Assembly: GCA_902583585.1 (NCBI GenBank)
Contig: CACHWN010000002.1
Span: forward strand, 1-64,000
DNA: 64,000 bases
Reading direction: 5' to 3'
DNA from: an uncultured Pelagibacteraceae bacterium
Lineage (GTDB): Bacteria > Pseudomonadota > Alphaproteobacteria > Pelagibacterales > Pelagibacteraceae
Of the stretch, positions 2,831 through 45,918 are shown piece by piece (position 1 is the first letter of the stretch; every line of letters begins with the position of its first letter). The translations under genes were made by a program, and so were the position numbers. The notes under the pieces were generated by a model. It saw only the letters and a program-made list of their open reading frames with translations, ran no database searches and was not told the origin of the DNA.

Positions 2831-3700
2831 TTATTTTTGACATTTTTTACAAAAAAATGTCGATCGGTTAGAAATAACTGACCTAACTATACTTAAGTTG
2901 CAATCTACATTAGAACATTCCTGATTTTCTCTACCATAGACATTAAAATATTGCTGATAGATGCCTTTTTTTCCATTTTCACTAGAAAAATCTTTAATTG
3001 TGGAACCACCAAGTTTAATTGAATTTTTTAAAATTTTCTTCGAAAATTTAACAATTTTATCTATTTCAGAGCTTTTTAGTTTAGCTGCTTTGCGATCAGG
3101 TTTTATTCCAGAAAGGAATAAAATTTCATTTACATATATGTTTCCTAGACCAGAAACACATTTTTGGTCCATAAGAATATTCTTAATCGATCTTTTTCGT
3201 CCAATTATATACTTTTTCAAATATATAGAATTCCAATTTTTTTCTAAAGGCTCTGGGCCTAAGTATTTAAGATGATTTACTTTGTAAATCGATTTGAGTT
3301 TGTATATCTTCAAAAAACCAAATTTTCTCACATCGTTGTAAATTAATTTTTGTTTTTTATTAAGAAAGAAAATGATTTTATCATGCTTTCTATCTTTTTT
3401 ATAATTTAAGAAATAGTAAAAACTTGTTTTAAATTCATTTTCTTTATGATCTATAAAGAAAAATTTTCCTGTCATTCCAAGATGAACTAATATTTGTTCT
3501 GTTTTACCTATTTCAAAAATTAAAAACTTTGATCTTCTTTTGATCTTTTTGATTTTTTTTCCTCTTAATTTAAAAAAACTGGTTTTATCTACCTTATATC
3601 TTAAATTGCCGTCTTTGATTTTAACTTTTTTGATTACTGAATTTAGGATTTTCCTCTCTAAGGACCTTTTAACAACTTCAACTTCTGGTAATTCTGGCAT
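2831..3700 (-). CDS. mutM: Formamidopyrimidine-DNA glycosylase
   Basis: MPELPEVEVVKRSL N-terminus and C-terminal zinc finger CSNVDC...CKKCQK. Confidence 0.97.
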   Translation of the reverse strand: MPELPEVEVVKRSLERKILNSVIKKVKIKDGNLRYKVDKTSFFKLRGKKIKKIKRRSKFLIFEIGKTEQILVHLGMTGKFFFIDHKENEFKTSFYYFLNYKKDRKHDKIIFFLNKKQKLIYNDVRKFGFLKIYKLKSIYKVNHLKYLGPEPLEKNWNSIYLKKYIIGRKRSIKNILMDQKCVSGLGNIYVNEILFLSGIKPDRKAAKLKSSEIDKIVKFSKKILKNSIKLGGSTIKDFSSENGKKGIYQQYFNVYGRENQECSNVDCNLSIVRSVISNRSTFFCKKCQK

Positions 3701-4416: not shown

Positions 4417-5982
4417 ATGTTAAAAAGAGTTTTTAAACTATTTCAAATAGCTAGAAAATTTTCTACTTCTGGGGCAGTAGCCACAATAAATGAGATGCAT
4501 CAATTGCCGACAACTATAAATTTATTTTTTAATTTAATTTCGGTTGGTTCAAGTTCAAATCTACAGGATGATCAAAAATCCTCTGGTGAGAAACTTTGTA
4601 CTGCTCTTCAAGGAATGGGAACAACTTTTATAAAATTAGGTCAGTTTCTAGCTACGAGGCCAGATATCATTGGCGAGGAACTTGCAAAATCTCTTGAAAA
4701 ATTACAGGACAAAGTTCCAGCTTTTGATCTGCACGATGCAAAAAAAATAATTAAAAAAGAAATTGGAGAGAATTATTTTAAAGATATTCAGGAATTAAGT
4801 GAACCTATAGCGGCAGCATCTATAGCTCAAGTACATCTGGCTAAAATAAAGCATGAAGAACAAGAAAAACAAGTTGCTATCAAAATATTAAGACCTGATA
4901 TAGAAAAATTATTTAATGAAGAATTAGACGCTTTAATGTTGTTTGCTTATATTGTTGAAAATACTATTGCAAAAGCAAAGAGATTAAAATTAGTTGAAGT
5001 TGTACATTTGTTAAGAGAGATAACTAATATAGAAATGGATTTAAGGTTTGAGGCTGCTGCTGCAAATGAACTTTACGAAAATACCAAAAATGACCAAGGA
5101 TTTATTGTTCCAAAAATTTATTGGAATTATACAACTAAAAAAATATTGACCTTAGACAAAGTCGAAGGTGTTTCTATACGTGAAATACAAAAAATTAATG
5201 ATCTAAAAGTAGATCTTAAGAGACTAGCTGAAAACTTAATACAATTATTTTTAACACAGGCTGTAAGGGATGGCTTTTTTCATGGTGATATGCATCAAGG
5301 AAATTTATTTGTAGATCCGAAAGGAAATATAATACCAGTAGATTTTGGTATTATGGGACGCTTAAACAAAGATAATAGAAAATTTTTAGCTGAAATTTTA
5401 TATGGTTTTATTAAAAGAGATTACGTTAAGGTTGCTGAAGTCCATTTTCAGGCTGGCCTTGTGCCGAAGGGTGCTTCAAAAGAGGAATTTGCTCAAGCCT
5501 TAAGATCTGTAGGCGAGCCTATTTTTGGACAGTCTATCAAAGATATTTCAGGTGGAAATTTATTGGCTCAACTATTTGAGATCACAGAGAAGTTTAATAT
5601 GCCTACTCAGCCTCCGCTTCTGTTATTACAAAAAACAATGGTAGTGGTTGAAGGGGTTGCAAGAAGACTTTATCCCGAAACAAATATTTGGGAGGTCTCT
5701 AGACCAGTTCTAGAAAATTGGCTAAAAACTGTGAAGAGTCCAAAATCTACGATAAATACAGCAATCAATACTTCATCCGAAATTTTAAAAAGAATACCGG
5801 ATCTTCCAGAATTAATGGATAGAGCTGATTATGCTCTAAAGTTAATGGCTGATGGAAATTTGAATTTAGCTGTTGGAACAAATAAAAATTTAGAATTAGA
5901 ACAAATGAAGATTAAAAACTTTAGAAATAATATAGTTATTAGTTTTTTTGGTGTTGTAATTGTCTTTTTATTGGTATTTTAA
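4417..5982 (+). CDS. ubiB: Ubiquinone biosynthesis ABC1-type kinase-like protein UbiB
   Basis: KLGQFLATRPDIIG, PIAAASIAQVH, FFHGDMHQGN motifs; C-terminal TM segment. Confidence 0.96.
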   Translation: MLKRVFKLFQIARKFSTSGAVATINEMHQLPTTINLFFNLISVGSSSNLQDDQKSSGEKLCTALQGMGTTFIKLGQFLATRPDIIGEELAKSLEKLQDKVPAFDLHDAKKIIKKEIGENYFKDIQELSEPIAAASIAQVHLAKIKHEEQEKQVAIKILRPDIEKLFNEELDALMLFAYIVENTIAKAKRLKLVEVVHLLREITNIEMDLRFEAAAANELYENTKNDQGFIVPKIYWNYTTKKILTLDKVEGVSIREIQKINDLKVDLKRLAENLIQLFLTQAVRDGFFHGDMHQGNLFVDPKGNIIPVDFGIMGRLNKDNRKFLAEILYGFIKRDYVKVAEVHFQAGLVPKGASKEEFAQALRSVGEPIFGQSIKDISGGNLLAQLFEITEKFNMPTQPPLLLLQKTMVVVEGVARRLYPETNIWEVSRPVLENWLKTVKSPKSTINTAINTSSEILKRIPDLPELMDRADYALKLMADGNLNLAVGTNKNLELEQMKIKNFRNNIVISFFGVVIVFLLVF

Positions 5983-45171: not shown

Positions 45172-45219
45172 TCGAATATATAACAATTGATTTTTAAAGA
45201 TAATCTGAGTCAGTTTTTT
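45161..45219 (+). terminator. Weak candidate terminator at the end of the PfkB gene
   Basis: GACTCAATTA ... TAATCTGAGTC (one bulge, long loop) then AG and T8. Confidence 0.3.
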
Positions 45220-45316
45220 TTCTTTTAAAACTTCCTTTTCCTTTTTTTGGTTTTACAACTCTTTTTCTGTACTTAGTTGTAAATAAATCCTTAGCTATCT
45301 TATTCCTCTTTTTCAC
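45194..45316 (-). CDS. arfA: ArfA-like alternative ribosome-rescue factor, 40 aa, GTG start (not in ORF track)
   Basis: MKKRNKIAKDLFTTKYRKRVVKPKKGKGSFKRKKTDSDYL*; core LF..k.R.RVV..KKGKGS(F/Y).RK; start overlaps upstream gene stop (GTGA). Confidence 0.7.
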   Translation of the reverse strand: MKKRNKIAKDLFTTKYRKRVVKPKKGKGSFKRKKTDSDYL

Positions 45317-45918
45317 AGATAATACCCATCTTTATTATTAAGAATGAAGTTTTCATCCAAAAACTTTTCATTAATTTTTTTTCTTAACCTATAAATATGT
45401 GTTTCAACTGTATGGGTATCTGCATCAGAAGAATAATTCCAAACAGAAGATAAAATCCTATCCTTTGAAACAGGTTTTTTGTTATTTAAAAACAAATCTA
45501 AAAGTTGAATTTCTTTTTCTGTTAGAATAATGAATTTTTCTAGCTTTGATAATTTTTTTTCATTCTTGTCTAATAAATAATTTTTTATTTTTACTGAGGA
45601 ATTTTGATTAAATTTTTTTTTTGCAATTGTATCCTCTATAATTCCGTTTATCTCTTTTAATGCAGCTGGCAATTCTAGAAAAGCATCAAAATTATCTTTG
45701 AAATCTCTTTTATGCCCTGCACATATTTTTATAGATGTTTTGCTATAAATTAAATTTTTTTGCTTACTATCTCGCAAAGCATCAATATGGAATAAAATAA
45801 TCTTATAATCAGCATTGATGTTATCTGTTAAAGGATTAAACTTTAAAAACATTTTTAATTCATTTAAAGTTGAAACAAATGAGGATGAACCTAAAACTTT
45901 TACGTTGAGTTTGTGCAT
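45313..45918 (-). CDS. OmpR/PhoB-type winged-helix regulator with degenerate receiver-like N-domain
   Basis: LTEKEIQLLDLFLNNKKPVSKDRILSSVW...DTHTVETHIYRLRKKI; N-domain lacks a recognisable phospho-acceptor Asp. Confidence 0.82.
   Translation of the reverse strand: MHKLNVKVLGSSSFVSTLNELKMFLKFNPLTDNINADYKIILFHIDALRDSKQKNLIYSKTSIKICAGHKRDFKDNFDAFLELPAALKEINGIIEDTIAKKKFNQNSSVKIKNYLLDKNEKKLSKLEKFIILTEKEIQLLDLFLNNKKPVSKDRILSSVWNYSSDADTHTVETHIYRLRKKINEKFLDENFILNNKDGYYL

Follow-up and report, generated by a model that had tools for sequence, protein, structure and literature searches.

The question raised by this locus is whether a reading frame of only 40 codons, lying directly behind a regulator gene in one of the Pelagibacteraceae, encodes a ribosome-rescue factor of the ArfA family and, if it does, how the dose of such a factor might be set. 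Pelagibacteraceae rank with the most numerous cells of the ocean. The window (the whole stretch of DNA that was analysed, 64,000 nucleotides) belongs to a draft genome that is 83% complete. Its gene order around the frame is pfkB (plus strand, convergent), arfA (minus), the regulator (minus) and a YkuD L,D-transpeptidase (plus), with 22 bases between the end of pfkB and the arfA stop. PfkB of the window shares 88% identity with its HIMB058 counterpart and 70% with the PRT-SC02 protein, and the named relatives of the locus lie in SAR11 single-cell genomes and HIMB058. Judged by these sequence relationships, the window genome is a SAR11 genome of the Pelagibacteraceae near HIMB058, which agrees with the streamlined genome supposed in the first-pass annotation. 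That annotation had also described a minus-strand frame whose GTG start overlaps the TGA of the gene upstream, and the DNA and its translation are exactly so: the frame runs from GTG (45316-45314) to TAA (45196-45194) and the protein reads MKKRNKIAKDLFTTKYRKRVVKPKKGKGSFKRKKTDSDYL (Table 1).

Table 1. Coordinates of the arfA locus in the window, with the evidence for each feature.
Feature	Position	Strand	Evidence
arfA, short ArfA-family ribosome-rescue factor (predicted)	45194..45316	-	PF03889 27.3 bits; dN/dS 0.116; about two-thirds of the order
arfA core KKGKGSF, residues 24-30	45227..45247	-	invariant K24 K25 G26 K27 G28 S29 and R32 (27 aligned relatives); aligned to E. coli ArfA
GTGA overlap of arfA start and regulator stop	45313..45316	-	NTGA in 104 of 121 distinct loci with the regulator upstream
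OmpR/PhoB-type regulator, winged helix plus degenerate receiver-like N-domain	45313..45918	-	PF00486 59.8 bits

Against the Pfam ArfA model (PF03889) the protein scores 27.3 bits (E 2.4e-6), above the curated gathering score of 25.5 bits, with residues 16-35 falling on model positions 23-42. A genome search found a single ArfA in the whole assembly, at this locus. Profile A1, which represents the SAR11 ArfA family in 27 rows, matched the E. coli ArfA chains only when run against the whole PDB (177,635 sequences; best E 1.2e-6). In a six-frame search, the relatives' profile gave the window ORF 74 bits, whereas nothing in 20 block-shuffled versions of the window scored above 12.6 bits; since that profile includes the ORF among its rows, independent evidence comes from the Pfam score and from conservation. 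Eleven positions are invariant among the 27 aligned relatives, the KKGKGS core and R32 included, and within 30 genomes of the genus arfA has a median dN/dS of 0.116, as compared with 0.301 for the regulator's final 60 codons. Both the ArfA match and the constrained reading frame anticipated at first pass were therefore found. The NCBIfam library gave no match, Pfam returned none between the window protein and DUF7230 (PF23876) at E ≤ 0.001, and PHROGs offered unnamed families only. On sequence evidence, SAR11 has a genuine arfA gene at 45194-45316. Taking homology and genomic context together, we think it very probable that the product is a stop-terminated ArfA which would back up tmRNA through RF2, at a dose set by the expression of the regulator gene.

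Using the Pfam model, ArfA was detected in 32 of the 37 genomes of the window's genus and in none of 24 from the sister family; across the order the figures were 196 of 297 genomes and 112 of the 150 best-quality ones. Profile A1 raised the count for the order to 204 of 297, or about 197 once seven matches of a related but distinct kind are subtracted. A scan of GTDB contigs returned at least 419 relatives, the best 80 of which all lie in Pelagibacteraceae or SAR11. Outside SAR11, a sample of 385 genomes from the class held just seven matches, and ArfA-like ORFs are present in scattered alphaproteobacterial genomes. This sits poorly with the published range, in which ArfA is limited to beta- and gammaproteobacteria (PMC6881298) and to which a DNA-profile search of RefSeq representatives, finding it in none of 2,376 alphaproteobacterial genomes, added solely a Bacillus group (PMC11633108). 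ArfA is widespread in an alphaproteobacterial family and was overlooked by published surveys; moreover, the form that runs through most of the Pelagibacteraceae is tail-less and has a different expression design.

The seven subtracted matches (five from the sister family and two from genus g7, at E of about 1e-4) were rejected as canonical ArfA, as the KGKGS core is missing; three of the five that were tested resemble DUF7230. Both the sister family and genus g7 have conserved proteins of 35-47 aa (L305-L311) with an ArfA-like N-terminal half and no KGKGS core. That half follows the pattern N-P-[IV]-A-[KR]-x-L-R-T-x-K-[FY], as in SAR11 ArfA, some of these proteins match DUF7230, and their profile aligns to SAR11 ArfA at 96% probability. 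By this resemblance, DUF7230 may be a relative of ArfA.

Relatives were also found in phages. A scan of IMG/VR gave 241 stretches encoding them, and 80 were kept (L183-L262). In thirteen of the 80 viral loci the gene is flanked by a UvsW-type helicase on one side and a gp55-type late sigma factor, then SbcD, on the other; a further arrangement places the gene next to the gp44 clamp loader (16 loci, six of them with DNA polymerase gp43), and 34 loci adjoin a DNA-binding protein and/or an endolysin of one type. Because of these neighbours, most of the 80 are taken to be genuine phages and at least 29 to be T4-like, while L183 may be a host fragment. ArfA-like ORFs of marine phages therefore recur at three sites, i.e. 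before gp55, after gp44, and between the DNA-binding protein and the endolysin. ArfA-like ORFs were also located at L263:15768-15944, L270 (about 1432-1593) and L269 (about 2995-3130). Unlabelled ORFs of Roseobacter phage CRP-212 and Caulobacter phage Cr30 score above the Pfam ArfA cut-off. In pelagiphage HTVC027P, gp30 was named ArfA by its authors (PMC12753301). It has the same core as SAR11 ArfA (NPVAKEVRTPKY...KPKKGRGSFKR) but, unlike the SAR11 gene, it has an N-terminal extension and no linkage to the regulator. Alone it scores 20.2 bits, under the Pfam gathering score; the phage profile that it heads (A4) aligns to SAR11 ArfA at 99.5% probability. Against the phage collection, tblastn returned nothing with either the 40-aa protein or a 47-aa viral relative, probably because its low-complexity filter masks such Lys-rich sequence; phage relatives were recovered with gp30 as the query and by scanning viral contigs. 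No credible ArfA match was seen in the two parts of pelagimyophage HTVC008M that were scanned (1-50 kb and 70-147 kb). The SAR11 case thus also raises the question of why marine phages carry arfA.

These distributions bear on where the SAR11 gene came from. Horizontal transfer from phage or Gammaproteobacteria, as opposed to ancestry within the Alphaproteobacteria, is a serious possibility, though in our judgement not the favoured one, and it would be compatible with our reading of function. The scarcity of arfA elsewhere in the class, its abundance in marine phage contigs and the lack of canonical ArfA in the sister family all speak for transfer. Against it stand the related, DUF7230-like small proteins that the sister family and genus g7 possess and the ArfA-like ORFs in scattered alphaproteobacterial genomes; a tree is beyond the resolution of a 35-residue protein.

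Whatever its origin, a stop-terminated ArfA would have to be expressed differently from its E. coli counterpart. The E. coli arfA ORF contains, in its 3′ part, a hairpin that leads to non-stop mRNA; the product of this mRNA is tagged by tmRNA, and the hydrophobic tail destabilises the product that remains (PMC3989581, PMC8012679). The SAR11 proteins, in contrast, are 34-43 aa long and end at an ordinary stop in each of 121 distinct loci, the E. coli-type hydrophobic C-terminal tail being absent from all 121. A 3′ hairpin, sought by folding energy, was likewise not apparent: the mean z was -0.6 for 30 SAR11 ORFs, which fold like shuffled sequence, versus -4.4 for the E. coli 3′ part. The naturally short ArfA without a hydrophobic tail that had been proposed for this locus is therefore what we observe, and it lacks the hairpin as well. 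With its own stop and no RNase III/terminator hairpin, SAR11 arfA lies outside the tmRNA-repression circuit of E. coli, a circuit that marks a sub-type and does not define the family. SAR11 thus raises a further question, namely what restrains a backup rescue factor when the non-stop mRNA circuit is missing. B. subtilis BrfA is unrelated in sequence to ArfA and its mRNA is made non-stop through an internal terminator; BrfA and Francisella ArfT are described, like ArfA, as small RF-recruiting backup factors (PMC6881298).

An answer might lie with the gene upstream. The AlphaFold2 model of the regulator (mean pLDDT 86.9) has response regulators as its best Foldseek matches, e.g. RitR, RpaA, KdpE and CosR, and no phospho-acceptor Asp is invariant in its N-domain. 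Its TGA (45315-45313) shares its first two bases with the last two of the arfA GTG, so that the genes overlap by 4 bases. The regulator immediately precedes arfA in 121 distinct loci. The NTGA overlap occurs in 104 of them and other spacings in 17, and the overlap with a winged-helix regulator reported at first pass is accordingly kept across genomes. At the 104 overlapping loci the start is TTG in 41, ATG in 37, GTG in 23 and CTG in three, whereas 16 of the 17 otherwise-spaced loci start with ATG. The difference in non-ATG starts (67 of 104 versus 1 of 17) has a Fisher p of 4.7e-6, a value that is optimistic since the loci are related and ATG was favoured in choosing starts for the 17. Tolerance of the first base exactly at the stop overlap fits restart by a terminating ribosome, and from the overlap geometry and this start-codon pattern we infer that the regulator and arfA are translationally coupled. 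Ribosomes finishing the regulator at UGA would restart on the overlapping NTG to make ArfA, the dose of which would follow the transcription and translation of the regulator gene. At one of the 80 named loci (L165:3990-4015), an additional A in an A-run past the arfA start (TTGAAAAAAAAGG) breaks the frame, and reflects either a sequencing error or recent inactivation.

The linkage and overlap are kept in the window's genus and in most of the other Pelagibacteraceae genera that were sampled, a constancy that would also suit a stress-response unit made of the two genes, its regulator detecting translation stress and adjusting arfA to it. We regard such a unit as unlikely, given that several Pelagibacter genomes keep the regulator without arfA, that genus g5 has another gene between arfA and the regulator, and that linkage may merely supply expression. 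Ten Pelagibacter genomes with the regulator but without arfA were inspected. In nine the regulator ends directly before the convergent, pfkB-like neighbour, and in the other (L284) a short gap at the locus may hold an arfA remnant. These loci (L276, L277 and L279-L286, from complete or near-complete genomes) are clean losses with tmRNA kept, and arfA must therefore be dispensable in several Pelagibacter. Since the regulator persists without arfA, we view the linkage as a means of expression no less than as a functional pairing.

Dose control by the regulator gene could be taken a step further. UGA is an RF2-specific stop, and RF2 is the partner of ArfA, which invites the speculation that reading of the regulator stop feeds back on ArfA dose; it is speculation because the NTGA geometry itself forces UGA and because the regulator ends in UAA at 14 of the 17 otherwise-spaced loci. 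In the fullest version, ArfA would come solely from ribosomes ending the regulator at UGA, so that RF2 availability controls how much of its own recruiter is made, in place of tmRNA feedback, and marine T4-like phages would carry ArfA so that ribosomes continue to cycle while infection lasts. We consider this combination improbable.

The rescue inventory of the genome comprises a permuted tmRNA (tag ANQKFALAA), SmpB and exactly two RF-1-domain proteins, RF1 and RF2. ArfB/YaeJ, which would be a third GGQ protein with an RF-1 domain, was not found in the 83% complete draft, and no third RF-1-domain protein appeared in 61 plus 19 further-checked genomes, each of which had at most two matches. The search for ssrA, smpB and arfB that had been suggested alongside the first description thus recovered the first two and not the third, and other SAR11 genomes, whether or not they carry arfA, show the same pattern of tmRNA with RF1 and RF2 only. 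With no ArfB found, ArfA would be the only known backup to trans-translation here, and the presence of tmRNA, SmpB and the RF2 contact residues without ArfB fits an RF2-recruiting backup. SAR11 ArfA would accordingly act by recruiting RF2 to non-stop ribosomes, backing up trans-translation. Why a streamlined genome should hold two rescue systems, one of which some relatives have dropped, is another question posed by SAR11.

Comparison with E. coli ArfA (YhdL; PF03889; PDB 5MGP, 5U4I, 5MDV, 5H5U) shows what such a contact would involve. The two proteins align without gaps over about 31 residues and have in common RxRV, the KKGKGS-aromatic-x-R core and a basic C-terminus; the SAR11 protein differs in its shorter N-terminus, its own stop and a start that overlaps the regulator, as well as in lacking tail and hairpin. 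In the E. coli protein, a hydrophobic N-terminal patch (L19, L24, F25) binds W319, V198 and F217 of RF2, the basic C-terminus occupies the empty mRNA channel, and truncation is tolerated at N47 but not after M40 (PMC5378476). The SAR11 core KKGKGSF (residues 24-30) corresponds to the segment with which E. coli ArfA goes into that channel. RF2 of the window genome keeps V198, F217 and W319. In the ungapped alignment F25 corresponds to Y16 of the window protein (Y/F in relatives), L24 to K15 and L19 to D10 (D/E in relatives), and hydrophobic residues lie nearby at I7, L11 and F12; with K15 and D10 at these positions, the contact with RF2 must differ in detail. The window protein ends at the equivalent of E. 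coli residue 49 or so, and the common 35-aa SAR11 form, basic throughout, at about 44; most SAR11 relatives end near this point, while E. coli ArfA needs about 47 residues (PMC5378476). The substitution of two of the three hydrophobic contact positions, in a short, basic, low-complexity sequence, could be read to mean that the product is a Lys-rich ribosome- or RNA-binding peptide independent of RF2, its likeness to ArfA reflecting basic composition or a diverged function. We find this very unlikely, as the KKGKGS core and the next Arg are invariant, the RF2 contact residues are kept, profile A1 matches no other basic protein in the PDB, and the phage relatives match the E. coli ArfA chains better still than profile A1 does. 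That the frame is a chance ORF in the 3′ end of the regulator transcript, as its shortness, non-ATG start and AT-rich genome might suggest, is contradicted by conservation, dN/dS, HMM scores and shuffles and can be set aside.

Two further features of the rescue genes were seen in SAR11. The prfB gene (L264:390-470) contains the classical RF2 +1 frameshift site, AGGGGGTATCTTTGA. Downstream of the tmRNA gene there are two further partial copies of its end region, about 1.85 kb apart (L312:779-821, 2672-2714 and 4514-4556; G000 contig C8), which frame small genes that are nuclease-like by inspection; weak tmRNA matches occur on the same side in many SAR11 genomes, and the arrangement looks like tandem cassettes inserted at ssrA.
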